A DNA stretch of 50,243 nucleotides from Pirellulales bacterium. Its GTDB lineage: Bacteria > Planctomycetota > Planctomycetia > Pirellulales > JADZDJ01. Positions 22,029 through 30,652 of the stretch are shown one piece after another. The notes below the pieces were generated by a model. It saw only the letters and a list, made by a program, of their open reading frames with translations. It was not told the origin of the DNA and searched no databases. Made by a program: the position numbers and the translations under genes. Location: NCBI GenBank assembly GCA_020851115.1, contig JADZDJ010000203.1:1-50243 (forward strand). Direction: 5' to 3'. How positions within the stretch are numbered: position 1 is the stretch's first letter; each line of letters opens with the position of its first letter.

Positions 22029-22687
22029 CGAGAAGCGATGCCGGGAATACGGCTGGCGAAGGGAGATTAATGCGAAATCTCGCCGCAGAATCGCCACCGC
22101 CGATGATGTTGTCGAATACAATGGGACTGCGCTGCTATTTTAGCGAGTCGATCTGAACATCTACAACGCGAACCAAACGATCTGATTCGCTGACATTGTA
22201 GAGTGTGTGCATGGGATTCAACCAATGTTGGAAAATTCGGCCGACGACGGATGCAATCGAGGGGGCGATTTGCGAAGTATCTTGTCGATTCTGTCAGCCC
22301 CCGTTCTCGCGGATCGGCGATCGAGCGAATGAAGCCATCGATCGGCCAGTTGGTTTTTCATCGCTTTCCCAAACAACCATCAAGATGTCCATTCGCTCCA
22401 TCGTCCGATCGAGCCGACCTGGAACTTCCTGCGCCGTCCACCAGGGCATATTTGAGTTCATATGTTTCTCGGCAGCCTAAATTCTGACCTCGGCAAATGG
22501 AGAAATGCCTCTCGTCTGAGGATGGAATCTCAGGCATCGACGAATACGATAGGCTCGTCGGCGTACTGGAGGGCTTTGGTTTGTCCGCTTGTCAATCAAG
22601 CTTTGGACCATTGCGGTGCAGATTCGTAAAGGTAGCCTAGTGCCATTATAGTATATCGGCTTCACTTATCCAATCCAAAGGCTCACC
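22029..22687. other. Divergent intergenic region, no gene seen
   Basis: About 660 bases between the divergent acylase and pseudo-sulfatase genes. Several short open frames exist, none protein-like. Both promoters should lie here; a TATAGT at 22647-22652 could be a -10 element for the plus-strand gene but has no good -35 partner at 17 bases. Confidence 0.4.
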
Positions 22688-23968
22688 GTGCTTCAACCGA
22701 ACATCATCTGCTTGGCCATCGATCGGCTGCATATTGGTTATCTGGGAGCATATGGAAGCACATGGGTCAGCACTCCGGCTTTGGATCGATTGGCGAGTGA
22801 ATCGCTGGTACTCGATCGGATGATGATCGATTCACCGCAATTGCAGAGTCTCTATCGTTCGTTGTGGCTGGGGTGTCATGCGATGGTTCCAGAAGCGCGA
22901 ATTGCTGGGACCGAGCCGATGCCTGCGCGCTTGGCAAACGCTGGTTGGAAGACAACACTTTTCACCGACGACCCCACGCTAGCGGCCCATCCGCTGGCCG
23001 ATGCGTTCGACCAACGGTTTATTGCGGAGCGGTATGACAGGCTACAAAATGACGTTCGTTCTGTGGCCGAAGATCTTTCGGATACCGACGCCGCGGCATT
23101 TTTTGCCCAGGCGATAGATTGGCTGGAAAAGTCGCCGCGAACGCCGTTTTTGTTGTGGGCACATACCGGCACGCTAGGGAAAATTTGGGATGCCCCACTG
23201 AACTTTCGTGCTCAATATCACGACGAAGACGATCCTGCGGCTGAAGATTGGTCGTCCGTGCCGAATCGTGTGTTTTCCGAGAAAGCCGATCCCGACGAAT
23301 TGCTTGGCTTGCGCCACGCCTACGCCGGACAGGTTTCGCTAATCGACGAACTGGTTGGTTCGCTGATCGAAGTAATCGATCGATCGCCGGCTGCGCCGAA
23401 CACGATGTTGGTCGTTGTTTCGACGCGCGGGTTTCCTCTGGGCGAACATGGACGTATCGGATTGTGCGATGAGGCGTTGTATGCTGAATTGACGCATGTT
23501 CCGTGTTTTGTTCGATTGCCGCAGGGCGCGGGGGCAAGTCTGCGATCTCAGTCGCTCGTTCAGCCGGCCGACCTCTGTGCAACCTTGTTGGACATCGCCT
23601 GCGGTTCATCGTCCAGGCAATCGCCAATTGCCAGCGCCAACGGCCGATCGATTCTGCCGCTGGCCTGCGGCGATTCGGCAGGAATCTTGGATCGGGCGTT
23701 CGCCATATCACCAGATCATGGCTGTCGCGTGGAAACGCCTGCTTGGGCGATGCGATTGTCGCCTGCAACCAAACGGTCATTTCAACCACAAGTCGAATTG
23801 TTCGTCAAACCTGATGATTGGTGTGAAGTCAATGAAGTTTCCGGACTGTGCCCGGAAATCGTCGATCAGTTGCAAAGCGTGCTAGCGGAATTTAGGCAGG
23901 GCTGTGAAACTGGCGAAGCCGCTGCTTGGCTGCCGCTAGGGCAGCAGCTTATTTTTGGCTTCGAATAG
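22688..23968 (+). CDS. Sulfatase-fold protein lacking the catalytic motif
   Basis: A 426-residue alkaline-phosphatase-superfamily protein related to sulfatases: NIICLAIDRLHIGYLGAYG at the N-terminus, then TPALDRLASES, and later PLGEHGRIGLCDEALYAELTHVP. Active sulfatases need CxPxR (or SxPxR), where Cys or Ser is oxidised to formylglycine. Here the equivalent region reads DSPQLQSLYRSLWLG, without the Cys/Ser-x-Pro-x-Arg. The first metal-binding Asp pair is DR rather than DD, and the later D(N/H)G metal motif is STRG. I therefore read it as a catalytically dead or repurposed member. It has no signal peptide. The start is GTG at 22688, with AAAGG about 10 bases upstream. Next downstream is the giant secreted protein. 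Confidence 0.88.
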   Translation: MLQPNIICLAIDRLHIGYLGAYGSTWVSTPALDRLASESLVLDRMMIDSPQLQSLYRSLWLGCHAMVPEARIAGTEPMPARLANAGWKTTLFTDDPTLAAHPLADAFDQRFIAERYDRLQNDVRSVAEDLSDTDAAAFFAQAIDWLEKSPRTPFLLWAHTGTLGKIWDAPLNFRAQYHDEDDPAAEDWSSVPNRVFSEKADPDELLGLRHAYAGQVSLIDELVGSLIEVIDRSPAAPNTMLVVVSTRGFPLGEHGRIGLCDEALYAELTHVPCFVRLPQGAGASLRSQSLVQPADLCATLLDIACGSSSRQSPIASANGRSILPLACGDSAGILDRAFAISPDHGCRVETPAWAMRLSPATKRSFQPQVELFVKPDDWCEVNEVSGLCPEIVDQLQSVLAEFRQGCETGEAAAWLPLGQQLIFGFE

Positions 23969-24111
23969 CGCAAGTCGGTAGTTCATTTGTACTTGGGCGA
24001 AAGAATCCGGTCTGGGGCCGATTGCGTCTTGGCGCTATAATTTCCCCATTCCTTGCCAGCCATTCGTGCGGCGGCAACTCAAGGACGAGATCATCAGCGG
24101 TTGGGTCATCC

Positions 24112-27100
24112 ATGCGCGGACAAGGAAGTCCGAATGCGCTTCGCCATCTCGCGCGCTCAATTGCCCGCGACGGCCAGAGTGCTTGGCGCTGGCGTTGCGG
24201 GCCGATCGCCGTGCGACGCACGCTGTTCGCATTGCTGATCGCGATTTTGAGCGCTAAGTCGGCTCAGGCTGAACCGACCGTGCAACTCCGTATCTCGTGG
24301 GGCGGTGGGGTAAAAACGCAGTGGCGCGGCTCCATCACCACCGACCACGGCAAGCTCAGTTTGGTGCGGTTGCTCGGCGAAGAGTCGGATGCTCCAGGTG
24401 CCGTTTGGGAGGAGCACGGTCGGATCGAGATTCGCCAACCGTCGCCCCAGTCGTACGACGCCATCGACATCGACGTAGCCGCGCCATCCGAGGCTACGCT
24501 GCGCATCGAACTGGCCGATTCCTCGTCGTCGGAGGAGGCGCCAATCCCCCAGGAAATCCCGTTGCACAGCGTGCTGAATAAGCCGACGGTACGAGATCTC
24601 GACAAGGCCAATAATCGAATTCGCGTGGCGCGCATTTCTTCAGATCCGCTCCATGTAAATCTCTCGCGCGACCATTTGGTGTTCTCGCCAGGCGAGAAAC
24701 TCCAATTCGAGGTCGAGCCGCGGTTTTTGCCGATTGCCGCCGGAACACCGGTGCAATTGCGAACAAAGCTGATCTCAATCGCCAATGGACAGGAATCGAA
24801 CGAGCAAGAGCAGTCTGGAAAGGCGACGGCCGACAGCGCAGATCCGGCGACGAGCGTGTGGGAATTTATTCTGCCGGATGCTGAAGGGGTTTACGAAATC
24901 TTGATCGAAGCTCTCGTGCAAACCAATTGGGGGTTTCCCAAACGGCTCAAGGCAATTGCCGAGCGTCGGATACAGCTCGTCGTGATCGACGACCACGCGC
25001 CGCAGAAGGCATCCGACGTCCCTGTCGTTTGGACGCGCCTCATGGAACTCGATCCGGCAAACCCCGCATGGTACGAACGTTTTCGTTCGTGGTCGCTGTC
25101 GAATCGAATCGGCCCGCTGGGCAGCGGCGGGATGCAATCGTGGCAGCATCCTACGCTTGGCTCGATGACCCGCTTGAAGGAGCATCGTGACGACCAGGAA
25201 CCACCTTGGGAAGCCTATCCGCTCACCATCAGCCATCCTGGCACTCCGCATGTCTTAGAAGTCGAATATCCCAGCGACATTCCGCAAACCCTGGCAGTCA
25301 GCGTCGTCGAGCCGAACGCCGCAGGAATGGTGATGTCGATTGGCATCGATTCCGGAGTGTTCGTCGTTGACGAGCCGATGGCCGCGACTGCCGCGGAAAT
25401 GCTGCGACATCACGTGATCTTCTGGCCGCGCACGGCATCGCCGCTGGTGGTGCTGGCAAATCGTGGAATCGGATCGCCGGCGGTATACGGGAAAATTCGT
25501 GTCGTAGCAGGGCCAAGCAAACTGCCGCCGCTGTTCCCCGTTGCCGAGCCATCCGAGCGGCTGCTGGCCGGCTACATGGGCCGGCCGCTGATCGCGGAAA
25601 ATTTTGGCGCGCCCGAGGCGCTCGCCGCGTCCATTGGGCGCAGTTTGAAGGACTGGCGAACCTTCTATTTGAGTGCGACACGCTTGGCGGAATTTCTGCA
25701 ACACGTGGGCTACAACGGTCAGATGCTGACAGTCATGTCCGACGGTAGCGCGATCTATCCTAGCCGGCTCTTGCAAGCCACGCCGCGTTACGACAATGGC
25801 GAGCTATTCGACTCGGGGCAAGACCCGGTGCGGAAGGATGTGCTCGAAATGACGCTCCGTATTTTCGATCGGGAAGGCATCAAGCTGATCCCTTCGCTGC
25901 GGTTCGATGCTCCTCTTCCCGAGTTGGAATCGCGCCTGCGAAGGGGCGGAGCCGATGCCGAAGGCATCCGCTTGATTGGAGCCGACGGCCACGAACATGG
26001 CGACGCGAGCCGACCACTGGCGACTCATCTTCCGCTTTACAATCCGCTGAATCCGCACGTTCAGCAAGCGATGATTGCCGTGGTCCACGAACTGACGGAG
26101 CGATATGGCAAGCATCCTTCATTCGCAGGCGTGGCGATCGAGCTATCGGCCGACTGCTGCACGCAGTTGCCCGGCGAGGCATGGGGGTTCGACAACGACA
26201 CTCTCAAACGCTTCGAGCAGGCGACCAAGATCAAGGTGCTCGGTGCCGGCGCGACTCGGTTTACCGATCGCGCGCAATTGCTGGCACCGCTGCCTCGCTC
26301 TCGCTTCGTCGCCGGCCCCGAGCACGAACAGTGGCTCAAGTGGCGCGCCGATGGATTAGCCGAATTCTATCGGAGAATGCAGGCCGAGCTGACGGCGTCG
26401 CGGCCAGACACGGTGTTGTATCTTGCCGCCACGAATTTGTTCGACAGTCGCGAAGCGCAGCAGTGGCTTCGGCCCTCACTGCCGCCAAAGGCTCGGGCCG
26501 ATGAGGTGCTGTTGACCTTTGGATTGAAGCCCGAATTGCTGCAGCACGATCGGGGGCTGGTCTTTCTCAAGCCCGAGCGCATTTTGCCTCCTGGACCCAT
26601 CGCGGACCAAGCGGTGCAGGTCGCAGTAAATCGGGCTCCTGAACTCGACGCCGCGTTCAACCGCCTGCCGGCAACTGGGACGTTGCTATTGAACGATTCC
26701 TGGATGCGAGACGATGCGCAACCTTTGAAATTGCCCTCCTTCGATCAGAAGAGTCCGTTCGGCAGGGATAAGACGAACCTGATGCTGTACTCGCATCTCT
26801 TGCCCTCGGCGCGCCGCAATCGCGAGCGGTTTATTCATGCGCTGGCCACACTCGATGCCGAGGCGATTTTCGACGGCGGCTGGCTGCTGCCCGTGGGGCA
26901 AGAAGATTCGCTGGTCGATCTGATCGCAACTTATCGTCGTTTGCCGGTGGGCAATTTCCAGGTCCACACCGACGCCACCCTGCCGGTGACAATCCGTAGC
27001 GCCGTGGTGGGAAATAGCGCGTATTCCTACCTGGTAAACGACAGCAGGTGGCCAATGACGGTGGATTTGTCGACTGTCTTGCCACCGGGTTGCCGCGTCG

Positions 27101-28044
27101 ATGAACTGAGTGGCCAGCGTCGCTTGCCGGCTCTGAATGCCGACCATTGGCAGATTCAGCTCGAGCCGTTCGATTTTGTGGCTCTGCGATTCTCGTCGCC
27201 AGATACAAAAATCACACAAGCGCGATTGCTGCCGAATCCAGAGCTGTTAGCATTCTTGAGCAGCAAGCATCAAGATTTTAAGCAGCGGCTCAACACGCTG
27301 GATCGGCCGCCGGCGCTGCCGGCATTTACCAACGCCAATTTCGAGACGTCGGCACAGGGGGGGCGGATTTCGGGATGGTCGCTGCTCAAGGGGACTACGG
27401 GCACGATTTCGCTCGTACCGGAAGGCGAATCCACGCAAAAAACCAATGGCAAACAGGCACTGCTGTTTCACTCTGGCGGCCCGCGGGCTTCGCTTCGCAG
27501 CGATTGGTTTGAGATGCCTCCCTCACGGCGGCTGACCGTGAAATTGTGGATGAAACTTCCCGACCCCGACAAGCCGCCAGTGCTGCAATTGGTTCTGGAA
27601 GGTGAACAGCATTACCGCATGCCGGGCCCAGTCTCGTTTTCCTCGTCGAATATTGCGCCAGGAGATTGGAATTGGTTCATCTTTCCGGTCAAAGATTTGC
27701 CGAACGAGGGTTCGGAAAAAGTTCGATTTGGTCTCGATATGAGCGGACCAGGCGACGTGTTGGTGGATGACATCTTAGCCTTTGGCCTCACGTATGATCG
27801 CGATGAACGGATCCAGTTGAATATGATCTCCACAGTGACCGACGGCTATTTGGGCGAGCGTAAAGTTGGCGAGTGCATGCGCGAACTGAACGATTATTGG
27901 CCCCGGTTCGTGTTGTCTTGCGTGCCGTCCCAAGGGCTCGAGCAATTTCCCAACCAACCGATCGCTCCGCAGGCCGACAGAGAAGAGGAAAGGCCGGCGC
28001 GGGCGGCTGGCCCGCTGCAGAAGCTGTTCAAGGGCCGATATTGA
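24112..28044 (+). CDS. Giant secreted glycosidase-like protein (1,310 residues)
   Basis: An exported protein. A basic start MRGQGSPNALRHLARSIARD leads to a hydrophobic segment RTLFALLIAILSAKSAQA, a signal peptide with a long n-region. Residues about 60-500 are beta-rich with SWGGGVKTQW and other strand motifs. Around residues 500-900 there is a TIM-barrel-like region (LQHVGYNGQMLTVMSDGSAIYP, REGIKLIPSLRFDAPLPEL, HPSFAGVAIELSADC), similar in outline to glycoside hydrolase families acting at the outer surface. The end has a jelly-roll (NANFETSAQGGRISGWSLLKG, DMSGPGDVLVDDILAF) resembling carbohydrate-binding modules. I cannot give a substrate or certain catalytic pair. The frame is open to 23926; 24112 is preferred for the signal peptide. 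It starts 143 bases after the pseudo-sulfatase gene and may be co-transcribed. Confidence 0.82.
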   Translation: MRGQGSPNALRHLARSIARDGQSAWRWRCGPIAVRRTLFALLIAILSAKSAQAEPTVQLRISWGGGVKTQWRGSITTDHGKLSLVRLLGEESDAPGAVWEEHGRIEIRQPSPQSYDAIDIDVAAPSEATLRIELADSSSSEEAPIPQEIPLHSVLNKPTVRDLDKANNRIRVARISSDPLHVNLSRDHLVFSPGEKLQFEVEPRFLPIAAGTPVQLRTKLISIANGQESNEQEQSGKATADSADPATSVWEFILPDAEGVYEILIEALVQTNWGFPKRLKAIAERRIQLVVIDDHAPQKASDVPVVWTRLMELDPANPAWYERFRSWSLSNRIGPLGSGGMQSWQHPTLGSMTRLKEHRDDQEPPWEAYPLTISHPGTPHVLEVEYPSDIPQTLAVSVVEPNAAGMVMSIGIDSGVFVVDEPMAATAAEMLRHHVIFWPRTASPLVVLANRGIGSPAVYGKIRVVAGPSKLPPLFPVAEPSERLLAGYMGRPLIAENFGAPEALAASIGRSLKDWRTFYLSATRLAEFLQHVGYNGQMLTVMSDGSAIYPSRLLQATPRYDNGELFDSGQDPVRKDVLEMTLRIFDREGIKLIPSLRFDAPLPELESRLRRGGADAEGIRLIGADGHEHGDASRPLATHLPLYNPLNPHVQQAMIAVVHELTERYGKHPSFAGVAIELSADCCTQLPGEAWGFDNDTLKRFEQATKIKVLGAGATRFTDRAQLLAPLPRSRFVAGPEHEQWLKWRADGLAEFYRRMQAELTASRPDTVLYLAATNLFDSREAQQWLRPSLPPKARADEVLLTFGLKPELLQHDRGLVFLKPERILPPGPIADQAVQVAVNRAPELDAAFNRLPATGTLLLNDSWMRDDAQPLKLPSFDQKSPFGRDKTNLMLYSHLLPSARRNRERFIHALATLDAEAIFDGGWLLPVGQEDSLVDLIATYRRLPVGNFQVHTDATLPVTIRSAVVGNSAYSYLVNDSRWPMTVDLSTVLPPGCRVDELSGQRRLPALNADHWQIQLEPFDFVALRFSSPDTKITQARLLPNPELLAFLSSKHQDFKQRLNTLDRPPALPAFTNANFETSAQGGRISGWSLLKGTTGTISLVPEGESTQKTNGKQALLFHSGGPRASLRSDWFEMPPSRRLTVKLWMKLPDPDKPPVLQLVLEGEQHYRMPGPVSFSSSNIAPGDWNWFIFPVKDLPNEGSEKVRFGLDMSGPGDVLVDDILAFGLTYDRDERIQLNMISTVTDGYLGERKVGECMRELNDYWPRFVLSCVPSQGLEQFPNQPIAPQADREEERPARAAGPLQKLFKGRY

Positions 28045-28556
28045 GCCAGAAATCGAAAAACAGCGATGGACGCTGCTGAGTTTTCGCCGACTCATCAGGG
28101 AAACTGTTACCTGTCGCCAAGGCTATGTGTCGCCCAAGCCGGCGAAGCGATGCGCACTGCGGCTGCGAATTCAGGTCGTCCCGATTGTTTCAGCATCTCC
28201 GGCCAAGAGGGTTGATGCGATTGGTCGGGTGACGCGATTCGGCTGCCGCGTTGTAATTCTTGCCCGCTAGCATGGGCGATAAGTAGGCAGCAGAGATTCG
28301 CTACGACCCCGGCAAACTCTGCCCAAACTGCCTGGCTCGATCGGATACAAAGGACTTTTGGGCTTGCTACGAGCTAGCATATTTCAGTAGGAACTGGGCT
28401 CGCCAACCGATTGCCAGGTGCGGTATAAGAGTTGCATCCAACCTCAATCGCCATCGCGACCGACAAGCGACTGCGGAAAAAATGCTAGCGCAGGTCGGCG
28501 ACTCGATTCCGCCTTGCCGACGATTTCAGTTCAGCTAACCAATGGAGTGGATTCTC
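28045..28556. other. Gene-free stretch with second copy of the interspersed repeat
   Basis: About 510 bases. I see no gene. Around 28129-28152 the plus strand carries a near-copy of the repeat found at 4721-4745 (minus). No strong promoter could be matched, and no terminator with a T-run follows the giant protein gene. Confidence 0.4.
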
Positions 28557-29447
28557 ATGCAGACGTTTACCATGCGCGCGTGTTGGAGCGCGTCCTGTAT
28601 TGGCGGCGCGGTCTGGCTGACGTCGCTTGGCTCGCCGGTCGTGGCGCAAACAGCGATCGCCGATGCGCAGATTTCCCAAAGTCAAACCGTCCAGCAATTC
28701 GTTCAACAGCCCCAGGTTTCCCAACCGCCAGCGGCGCAACATCCATTGCAGCCGGCCGTCGATTTGGCGGTCAATTCGCTGAAATTGCAAGATGCGAACA
28801 TTAGAGATTATTCGGCCACGGTTCGCAAAGTCGAACGCATCGACGGCAAAGTCGGCGAACCGGAATATGCGTTGATTAAAGTTCGGAATCGGCCGTTTAG
28901 CGTCTACATGCAGTTCATCGGGCCGGAGAATCTGAAAGGTCAGGAATGCCTGTATGTCGAAGGCCAAAATGACGGCAAGATGTTCGCACACGCCCCGCCC
29001 GGAACGCTCCGCTACAAGTTCGGCACCGTTTCGCTGGCGCCCAACAGCGTGATGGCCATGAAAGGACAACGGTATCCGATCACCGAACTTGGGATCTACA
29101 ACCTCACAAAGCGGTTGGCCGAGCAAGGCACAAAGGACATGCAATATGGCGAGTGCGATGTGAAGTTTTACAAGGACTACAAGGTTGCCGGACGACCATG
29201 TCTGATGATCCAAGTCGAGCATCCCGTGCCACGGCGAAATTTCATTTTCCACATGGCGAAAATCTACGTCGATGACGAATGGCAAATCCCCATTCGCTAC
29301 GAAGCCTACGACTGGCCGTTGCAACAAGGCGGCGAGCCGCAACTGCTCGAAGAATACACCTACATGAACATCAAATTGAACGAAGGTTACACGGACGCCG
29401 ACTTCGATGTTCATAACAGGCAATACCAGTTCAATCTGAAGCGGTAG
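28557..29447 (+). CDS. DUF1571 secreted protein, copy 1
   Basis: A 296-residue exported protein with a DUF1571 domain, a family nearly confined to planctomycetes. A signal peptide (core SCIGGAVWLTSLGSPVVAQ) is followed by a Gln/Ser/Pro-rich linker and then the domain: IRDYSATVRKVERIDGKVGE, VRNRPFSVYMQFIGPENLKG, LYVEGQNDGKMFAHAPP, RYPITELGIYNLTKRL, and the C-terminal EEYTYMNIKLNEGYTDADFD. Family members resemble outer-membrane lipoprotein-sorting (LolA-like) folds, but a function in lipoprotein transport is inference. The ATG at 28557 has GGAGTGG at 28544-28550. The paralog follows 281 bases downstream. Confidence 0.9.
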   Translation: MQTFTMRACWSASCIGGAVWLTSLGSPVVAQTAIADAQISQSQTVQQFVQQPQVSQPPAAQHPLQPAVDLAVNSLKLQDANIRDYSATVRKVERIDGKVGEPEYALIKVRNRPFSVYMQFIGPENLKGQECLYVEGQNDGKMFAHAPPGTLRYKFGTVSLAPNSVMAMKGQRYPITELGIYNLTKRLAEQGTKDMQYGECDVKFYKDYKVAGRPCLMIQVEHPVPRRNFIFHMAKIYVDDEWQIPIRYEAYDWPLQQGGEPQLLEEYTYMNIKLNEGYTDADFDVHNRQYQFNLKR

Positions 29448-29728: not shown

Positions 29729-30652
29729 ATGCACTCAACCCACCCAAATCAACCACCACTAGCTCGATCACGGGGCAGCCGCGGCAAGCAGTACCGGTGT
29801 TGGGTGGTGCTTGCCGCGGCCGTGGTTGCCGTGCTTGCCGCGGGTGTTCTACTTCGATCCGCCAACCACCGCGTACCGAAAGCCATGATTCCGGCTACCG
29901 GTCCGCCCGGCGCGCCCACGGCGGATCGCGGCGCTGGTCCTTCCGCGGCCCACCCGCTGGTTGGGGTATTGGAATTCGCGCGGCGAGTTCAGGCGAACAT
30001 CCAAGAACAGATTCGCGATTATACGGCGGTTGTGTTAAAGCAGGAGCGAATTCTCGGCAAGCTGGGGCCGCTGGAAGTTTGCTTCGTCAAAATTCGTGAA
30101 CGGCCCTTCAGCGCGTATATGAAATTCTTGGCGCCACAGGGCCTCAAGGGGCAGGAAGCGCTGTACGTTGCCGGCGCGAACGATGGAAAAATGTTCGCGC
30201 ACGCCGGCAGCGGAATTCGCGCTTTGGTCGGCACCGTGCAAATACCACCTACCGGGCCGATCGCCATGCTCGGCCAGCGGTATCCAATGACCGAGTTGGG
30301 AATTGCCAACTTGACGCGCCGTCTGATCGAAGTCGGCGATCACGACAAACAGTATGGCGAGTGTTATGTGTGGATGGACGAGGACGCCAAAGTCGGCAAT
30401 CGACCCTGCACTTCGATTACCGTGATGCATCCGTTCAAGCGACCGGCGTTCATTTATTACATCGCGCGGATTTTTGTGGACCGCGAATGGATGGTTCCGA
30501 TCCACTACGAAGCGTATGAGTGGCCCGACACGCCCGGCGGCCCACCCGTGCTACTGGAGCGCTACACCTATACCCATCTGAAGCTGAACCCCGGCCTCAC
30601 GGATGTCGATTTTGATCCGCACAATCCGCAGTATAATTTTCGACTGAAATGA
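29729..30652 (+). CDS. DUF1571 secreted protein, copy 2
   Basis: A 307-residue paralog of the upstream protein. The N-terminus has basic residues then a hydrophobic helix WVVLAAAVVAVLAAGVLL, which may be a signal peptide or anchor. The domain repeats the same order: IRDYTAVVLKQERILGKLG, IRERPFSAYMKFLAPQGLKG, LYVAGANDGKMFAHAGSG, RYPMTELGIANLTRRL, CYVWMDEDAKVGNRPC, ERYTYTHLKLNPGLTDVDFD, and it ends in QYNFRLK where copy 1 ends QYQFNLKR. Conservation is strong in the domain and absent in the N-terminal linkers. No clear Shine-Dalgarno site precedes 29729. Its stop overlaps the start of the next gene by four bases (ATGA). Confidence 0.9.
   Translation: MHSTHPNQPPLARSRGSRGKQYRCWVVLAAAVVAVLAAGVLLRSANHRVPKAMIPATGPPGAPTADRGAGPSAAHPLVGVLEFARRVQANIQEQIRDYTAVVLKQERILGKLGPLEVCFVKIRERPFSAYMKFLAPQGLKGQEALYVAGANDGKMFAHAGSGIRALVGTVQIPPTGPIAMLGQRYPMTELGIANLTRRLIEVGDHDKQYGECYVWMDEDAKVGNRPCTSITVMHPFKRPAFIYYIARIFVDREWMVPIHYEAYEWPDTPGGPPVLLERYTYTHLKLNPGLTDVDFDPHNPQYNFRLK

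Follow-up and report, generated by a model that had tools for sequence, protein, structure and literature searches.

A predicted cytosolic family of sulfatase-fold pseudoenzymes in Planctomycetota and its linkage with a gene for a predicted secreted PgaB/Cwp19-like barrel protein

Introduction

What does a sulfatase-fold protein do once the residues that make a sulfatase work are gone? The question is raised by a gene within a 50,243-nt stretch of Pirellulales DNA that was analysed as a whole (the window). A first-pass annotation had read this gene as an undamaged sulfatase relative with lost catalytic and metal motifs and a retained role, possibly exerted together with a giant neighbour. In the following, we refer to the gene and its product as the pseudosulfatase and to the downstream gene as its partner.

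Sulfatase repertoires of planctomycetes are large, e.g., two genomes of one survey have 122 and 129 putative sulfatases in which the active site is present (PMC4807772). Counts based on PF00884 only would wrongly take in the pseudosulfatase gene. The SulfAtlas authors list nine Lentisphaerae/Planctomycetes sequences as possibly inactive after loss of the catalytic charged residue, and they warn that PF00884 mislabels Thr-type proteins (PMC5066984). Within the open-access literature searched (most subscription journals lie outside it), we found no description of the pseudosulfatase family and, by title and start of the abstract, no paper on a bacterial pseudosulfatase.

Results

The gene and its fold

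Two genes of the window are central to the analysis:
22688..23968, + strand: pseudosulfatase gene, GTG start; product of 426 aa without a signal peptide (from the open reading frame, PF00884 and an AlphaFold model)
24112..28044, + strand: partner gene (the 'giant'), 1310 aa, 143 bp past the pseudosulfatase stop; product predicted to be exported, with a PgaB/Cwp19-like barrel

The pseudosulfatase frame runs unbroken from the GTG at 22688 to the TAG ending at 23968, as the first-pass annotation had stated. The sulfatase ancestry of its product is evident, i.e., the protein has the PF00884 sulfatase fold of the formylglycine (FGly) sulfatases (S1), with the domain covering residues 4-306 (profile positions 1-300 of 301, E 5.4e-20). 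The earlier annotation had also called the fold intact and proposed to build a model. The AlphaFold model bears this out (pLDDT 93.0, pTM 0.93); Z scores against S1 sulfatases reach up to 36.4, the value obtained with VIA-align for the S1_25 sulfatase 6hr5 (rmsd 3.0, 343 aligned residues). The likeness to S1 enzymes (S1_25, 6hr5; S1_7, 6hhm) spans the whole fold including the C-terminal subdomain, and D12 as well as the G-x-Y-G, TP-x-x-D-x-LA and LGEH segments are retained.

In contrast to these enzymes, the pseudosulfatase lacks a signal peptide, which had been noted before and which we conclude from an in-frame stop 13 codons ahead of the GTG together with the start lying only a few residues ahead of the first beta strand of the model. 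Choline-sulfatase and other NCBIfam equivalogs were rejected as assignments (25-67 bits vs. cut-offs of 433-900), and Rfam gave no match up to E 5 within 22100-24400.

Family members and distribution

A search of 57 genomes of the order Pirellulales gave matches in all 57, since true sulfatases match too. Orthologs were split from true sulfatases by alignment and motifs, which left a clear pseudosulfatase ortholog in 51 genomes (53 sequences). Together with a divergent ortholog in G052, 52/57 genomes of the order carry one. For G027, G028, G039, G048 and G051 (estimated completeness 82-97%), no ortholog was among the scored candidates; the first three also had candidates that the search left unscored. 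The gene is single-copy in all but two of the genomes carrying it. The two copies each in G006 (L062/L053) and G032 (L043/L044) may reflect paralogy or mixed assemblies.

A further set of loci was found in GTDB by the peptide pattern L[YF]xKPDDx[WFC][ED], of which the best 80 of 288 were used. Their names are Pirellulales, Pirellulaceae, Planctomycetaceae, Thermoguttaceae and similar, next to a few vague or odd titles, e.g., one 'Candidatus Nealsonbacteria' bin. One alignment holds 79 of the 80 (L121, with a truncated frame, was omitted). Pooling the 53-sequence set with the GTDB loci gave 117 distinct sequences of the order. L054 (153.7 bits) was dropped from the family because its motifs, CTASR and SDHG, are those of a true sulfatase. 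The frames at L036:6436-9336 and L076:8877-11174 span 967 and 766 aa from stop to stop, far more than the family domain, and may be either fusions or just open upstream.

In a phylum sample of 294 genomes, four of the five same-order genomes scored 323-536 bits and the fifth (G052) 143, and no genome beyond the same-order ones exceeded 187 bits. In a second family of the same class (that of G291), 45/150 genomes match at 1e-33 or better, where some of the weaker 15 matches may be true sulfatases. The loci taken from this family are the 30 best of the 45 matches plus six added ones, which are partly the same genes. They provide 31 distinct sequences above 150 bits (excluding L169, L171 and L172), which have lost the motifs too.

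Catalytic and metal motifs

To place the motifs, a profile from 80 family members was aligned to solved sulfatases. The respective positions in the window are:
22721..22726, + strand: D12-R13, the former Asp pair of the metal site (alignment to solved sulfatases, family counts)
22841..22855, + strand: L52-Q-S-L-Y56, the ungapped counterpart of C-x-P-x-R (profile alignment, family counts)
22967..22969, + strand: D94, at the column of the GKWH-type Lys (D in 116/117; placement uncertain by one residue)
23423..23431, + strand: T246-R247-G248, the former D-N/H-G metal motif (profile alignment; R247 in 109/117)

In this profile alignment, TPICAASR of 6hr5 falls without a gap onto S-P-Q-L-Q-S-L-Y of the pseudosulfatase, so that L52 takes the position of the catalytic Cys and Y56 that of the Arg. 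Thus, CxPxR is replaced in place, as had been claimed. Position 52 is L in the window protein and in 85/117 order members, and T in 4/117. We also searched for a displaced motif, which the earlier annotation had named as the result that would speak against its reading. At the aligned positions 36-75, [CS]xPxR occurs in 0/117 distinct order members and 0/31 members of the second family, by which a displaced CxPxR is ruled out for the family. The looser [CST]x[PA]xR is seen there in 3/117 and 0/31, and C.P.R anywhere in the protein in 0/117 and 1/31, respectively.

The metal site shows the same picture, with DD and D[HN]G each found in 0/117 order members and 0/31 second-family members. The first Asp pair reads DR, as described before, with the correction that only its second Asp is lost (R13; R in 82/117, G in 22/117); the first one, D12, is kept in 113/117. 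The DHG-type motif is replaced by T246-R247-G248, in line with the earlier claim. The Lys column of the GKWH-type motif, K in three comparator sulfatases (MAFFT alignment), holds D94 in 52/53 and 116/117 sequences, a placement that is uncertain by one residue in the profile alignment to solved sulfatases; position 95 is D or E in 103/117.

That is, neither [C/S]-x-P-x-R, nor DD plus D-(N/H)-G, nor the GKWH-type Lys/His of FGly sulfatases is present. Compared with S1 enzymes, the protein is without the formylglycine Cys, the second Asp and the D-N/H-G ligands. As there is neither Cys nor Ser at the site and most metal ligands are gone, a formylglycine mechanism is impossible for the protein, which, judged by its motifs, cannot be an FGly sulfatase.

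The separation from true sulfatases is also reflected in a tree of 49 proteins, where all 38 pseudosulfatases lie on one side of a 100/100 branch. The opposite side holds 8 sulfatase comparators (C-x-[PA]-x-R in 7/8, D[HN]G in 8/8) and 3 further relatives (T-x-P-x-R in 2/3, D-H-G in 3/3). The 15 proteins of the second family form one starred group. The inner order of the Pirellulales is mostly unresolved in this tree, 9 rows have uneven composition, and the join of L049 with L172 may be due to long-branch attraction. Thr-type PF00884 relatives from other Planctomycetota were found at L169:269-1708 and L171:7582-9021. They resemble the family in a DPHEPWD(P/A)P segment (cf. WDAP below) and in scoring 165-169 bits with its profile, but T-x-P-x-R and D-H-G are both intact in them, and the tree groups them with the sulfatases and apart from the pseudosulfatases. 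Taken by its sequences, the pseudosulfatase family is an old planctomycete family of predicted cytosolic sulfatase-fold pseudoenzymes.

Conserved residues and selection

Family counts reveal residues of the family's own that are nearly invariant, two groups of which are compact in sequence:
23156..23209, + strand: signature W157-x-H159-(7)-W167-D168-A-P170-(3)-R174 (family counts)
23807..23818, + strand: K374-P-D-D377 motif of the C-terminal subdomain (counts in 53 sequences chosen independently of the motif)

Among the 117 order sequences, the signature is conserved with W157 in 115, H159 in 115, W167 in 116, D168 in 116, P170 in 116 and R174 in 108. Further conserved positions are Q215 (112), D220 (117), R247 (109), H254 (114), W353 (116), K374 (113), P375 (116) and D377 (116). 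The KPDD counts are inflated for the 80 GTDB loci, whose search pattern contained the motif; in the 53 sequences not selected by it, K374 is found in 50, P375 in 53, D376 in 50 and D377 in 53. Likewise, four or five of the 14 invariant columns among 80 sequences lie within the motif used to find those loci. The earlier annotation had proposed to measure conservation at the former active site. With D94 and R247 among the conserved positions, homologs show near-invariant residues of their own there.

Second-family members keep W157 and P170 in 31/31. At position 159 they have R in 13, H in 8 and K in 6 of 31, and the D168 position is L in 20/31. Many sequences of this subfamily (L165-L168, L170, L173, L210-L239) show an LLWLKSRGVPxPWLPP-like segment instead of WxHxxxLxxxWDAP.

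Simple counting gives a dN/dS of 0.08-0.29 for 22/22 pseudosulfatase pairs of 68-96% identity. Some sequences occur in more than one pair, two pairs belong to the second family, and several pairs have a dS above 1. The ratios indicate that selection on the family is purifying. The unbroken frame and this selection rule out a pseudogene or frame damage. With its motifs lost, purifying selection and near-invariant residues of its own, the pseudosulfatase is a retained pseudoenzyme, and the claimed retention of the gene is confirmed by its presence in 52/57 genomes.

Linkage with the partner gene

We surveyed window ORFs of at least 80 aa between 5 and 42 kb for recurrence near the pseudosulfatase in other loci, which mostly cover about 8 kb on each side. 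Antisense shadows aside, only the downstream ORF, i.e., the partner, recurs. Two tandem DUF1571 proteins follow in the window (28542-29447 and 29729-30652; PF07608, 2e-73 and 2e-70); the pair was not found conserved beside the pseudosulfatase within the about 8 kb on each side of the relatives' loci.

When 'directly downstream' is defined as a partner-profile match on the same strand with a gap of -300 to 600 bp, the partner is directly downstream in 25/53 relatives' loci and in 37/80 GTDB loci (best 80 of 288), two sets that overlap. Among the remaining relatives' loci, it is elsewhere nearby in 2, the contig ends in 5 and it is absent nearby in 21; the respective GTDB numbers are 4, 5 and 34.

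Co-occurrence within the order is barely informative because the partner is present in 53/57 genomes. Among the 150 second-family genomes, a strong partner match (at least 300 bits) was found in 18, of which 11 belong to one genus and are not independent. A pseudosulfatase-profile match is present in 15 of these 18 (partial in one, G364) and in 30 of the 132 genomes without a strong partner match. Put differently, 30/45 genomes with a pseudosulfatase-profile match are without a strong partner match.

The bit scores of both proteins to the window covary over 42 genomes (Spearman 0.60; 0.49 with p 0.0009 when partial on two control genes), noting that scores taken against a single reference depend in part on phylogeny. 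Covariation is absent where the two genes did not score as linked (21 genomes; Spearman 0.20, p 0.38), and in the 21 linked genomes the partial covariation is not significant (0.31, p 0.18). Given these limits of covariation and co-occurrence, the link between pseudosulfatase and partner rests mainly on conserved gene order.

The partner protein

Two parts of the partner were delimited:
24112..24270, + strand: n-region and hydrophobic segment ending in AKSAQA, signal-peptide-like (hydropathy and sequence only)
25555..26928, + strand: glycosidase-like TIM barrel, model residues 424-881 (PF02638 and structure comparison)

The partner starts at the ATG at 24112. PF02638 (GHL10) matches its middle (3e-8, 33.6 bits vs. 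a cut-off of 27.9), and its model has a pLDDT of 84.5. When compared with known structures, the barrel is closest to Cwp19 (Z 22.3, rmsd 4.1, 327 aligned), a GHL10 protein, and to the C-terminal domain of PgaB (Z 21.4, rmsd 3.4, 336 aligned), a GH153 domain. It thereby shows the GHL10/PgaB-like barrel of PgaB/GHL10 glycosidases. The likeness is confined to this TIM barrel (Z 21-22 over 327-336 residues) at a sequence identity of just 10-12%, whereas the partner as a whole exceeds 1,300 aa and has large N- and C-terminal beta domains.

The barrel assignment follows the realigned list and not Foldseek's own ranking of the partner model, in which GH2 and GH101 enzymes come first with TM-scores of 0.15-0.16 and Cwp19 is at rank 47. 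With beta-amylases and beta-galactosidases next for the barrel (Z 16-19) and GH2/GH101 enzymes at the head of the Foldseek ranking, more than one substrate is conceivable. Taken together, the predictions describe a secreted partner that carries a PgaB/Cwp19-like barrel. A paper on GHL10 in planctomycetes was not found in the open-access literature searched, which has most subscription journals outside.

A CsrA-type hairpin at the partner start

A short element overlaps the first codons of the partner:
24117..24132, + strand: CsrA-type hairpin C-GGAC-AAGGAA-GTCC-G, just past the partner start codon (fold and conservation)

We examined 51 distinct partner genes of at least 1000 bits. Near their start, the amino-acid motif G-[QH]-G-x-P is found in 44/51, and 43 of these 44 have the exact DNA GGACANGGANGTCC there (exception L099), 39 of the 44 right behind the ATG. 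ATG-NTC-GGA-CAN-GGA-NGT-CCG is matched in full by 31/44. Among the other 7 partner genes, L068 has the exact DNA without the G-[QH]-G-x-P motif. The wobble bases of GGA, GGA and NGT are the same in 43/44 each, although the regular expression fixed amino acids only; the third base of CAN is free (A16, C14, G9, T5). A peptide docking motif MxGQGxP at the partner N-terminus is therefore rejected, as the third bases of its codons are conserved no less than the residues they encode and the free codon position coincides with the free base of a CsrA site. A DNA palindrome for a transcription factor is disfavoured as well, given a conserved A-N-GGA loop that is asymmetric and always on the coding strand.

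The pattern reads ACA-N-GGA-N-GU, and AC/GU closes its loop of six bases. According to PMC7652899, the CsrA site derived by SELEX is ACA...GGA...GU with the GGA in a six-base hairpin loop, and the partner mRNA start agrees with this consensus. Folding gives a hexaloop for the window hairpin and for 6 of the 8 further ones, and a four-base loop for the other two. The exact pattern has a single match in the window's 5.2-Mb genome, at the partner gene. Over the 57 genomes there are 91 matches; 39/53 partner genes have one on the same strand between 600 bp upstream and 60 bp inside the matched start (22/25 linked and 17/28 not-linked genes), and 14 partner genes have none. A general regulon of the exact hairpin is not supported, with 52 matches away from the partner vs. 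51 for a reversed control pattern.

CsrA (PF02599) is present in 57/57 genomes. There are seven PF02599 matches in the window's genome (G000) and 14 in its relative G015. The same hairpin is not enriched at the pseudosulfatase start (3/113 regions vs. 1.65 (sd 1.2) from shuffles), so regulation of the partner can be separate from that of the pseudosulfatase. From these patterns, translation of the partner appears to be under separate CsrA control. No paper on planctomycete CsrA was seen by title among the matches listed from the open-access literature. For E. coli, PMC7652899 describes repression of the pgaABCD operon by CsrA at the mRNA leader.

Discussion

The residues that are newly conserved, some of them at former active-site positions, argue for continued use of a ligand pocket or interface. 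The pseudosulfatase is cytosolic for want of a signal peptide and the partner is exported (both predicted), which favours a regulatory or binding role in a pathway of polymer making or export. The first-pass idea of a role shared with the giant neighbour holds insofar as conserved gene order links both genes; a direct joint binding of glycans at the surface is unlikely, since the predicted compartments differ. Our proposal, to which we grant an even chance, is that the pseudosulfatase, predicted to be cytosolic, serves the exopolysaccharide or envelope pathway of its neighbour by non-catalytic binding or regulation. The old pocket would no longer hold metal. Instead of the metal, Arg247, often together with Arg13, would supply positive charge at the former site; an Arg in place of the metal-binding Asn/His, with a second Arg by the kept Asp, plausibly keeps that charge metal-free. 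Asp94, His159, Trp157, Trp167 and Asp168 may form a new pocket or interface, by which the protein might bind, but not cut, a small anionic ligand, a glycan precursor or another protein of the cytosol. Such binding would tune the exopolysaccharide/envelope pathway including the giant neighbour, whose translation would be regulated separately by CsrA.

The same conserved residues could also be read as a repurposed enzyme with new metal-independent chemistry (lyase, isomerase or transferase) and D94, H159 and D168 as acid/base. They are chemically capable and near-invariant (counts above, including R247), some of them sit at former active-site positions, and the alkaline phosphatase superfamily is described as catalytically promiscuous (PMC12421950). 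But the second family mostly swaps H159 and D168 and keeps W157 and P170 throughout, which suits binding or an interface better than fixed catalysis, such that we consider new chemistry unlikely. A dedicated cytosolic chaperone or scaffold that binds the partner pre-protein before export would fit the conserved same-strand order of pseudosulfatase and partner as well as the very large, predicted exported product; it is made improbable by the two thirds of matching second-family genomes that are without a strong partner match.

Help for other sulfatases, i.e., a cytosolic decoy or chaperone in formylglycine maturation or export, is suggested by the sulfatase fold and by the many other sulfatase-profile candidates in relatives' genomes. 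Yet maturation enzymes read the CxPxR peptide of sulfatases, which is gone here, the linked gene is glycosidase-like and neither a sulfatase nor a maturation enzyme, and the draft genome of the window retains the pseudosulfatase although its other PF00884 matches are just two strong genes and two that are weak and partial. We thus judge such a helper quite improbable. Least of all do we expect a structural fossil without important function, which would persist because it is linked to the partner or decays slowly: the loss of nearly all canonical motifs is what one would see, but the low dN/dS in all 22 pairs, the intact frames, the invariant columns (also those outside the search motif) and the retention of the gene where no partner is nearby speak against it.

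Returning to the proposed binding or regulatory role, a bolder and rather doubtful version would make the family a planctomycete-wide cytosolic former sulfatase with arginines for metal, acting as a ligand sensor or metal-free enzyme that gates an exopolysaccharide machine with a secreted PgaB-like glycosidase, itself controlled at the mRNA by a dedicated CsrA hairpin. If true, surface polymers would be under a Csr-linked circuit in bacteria other than the classical Csr models. The partner hairpin is in any case a candidate Csr target in Planctomycetota. Being near-universal in the order, mostly single-copy and tied to one secreted partner with a CsrA-type hairpin, the pseudosulfatase marks a core, uncharacterised function that probably concerns envelope or exopolysaccharide.

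By analogy, the nearest working model is a regulatory sulfatase-fold protein such as YejM/PbgA. This envelope-synthesis regulator is argued to be without properly placed catalytic residues (PMC7773988). Its inactivity is disputed, as another group describes an intact Thr302/metal site and Mg-dependent phosphatase activity (PMC7576196). YejM is membrane-anchored, periplasmic and LPS-sensing, whereas the pseudosulfatase is predicted to be soluble and cytosolic, without an N-terminal transmembrane anchor and periplasmic domain, and has lost nucleophile and metal motifs; the Thr nucleophile of the LtaS/EptA type is replaced by L at position 52. Common to both is the sulfatase fold, and the pseudosulfatase model aligns with the YejM/PbgA periplasmic domain (6xlp) at Z 31.8 and rmsd 3.2 over 322 residues.
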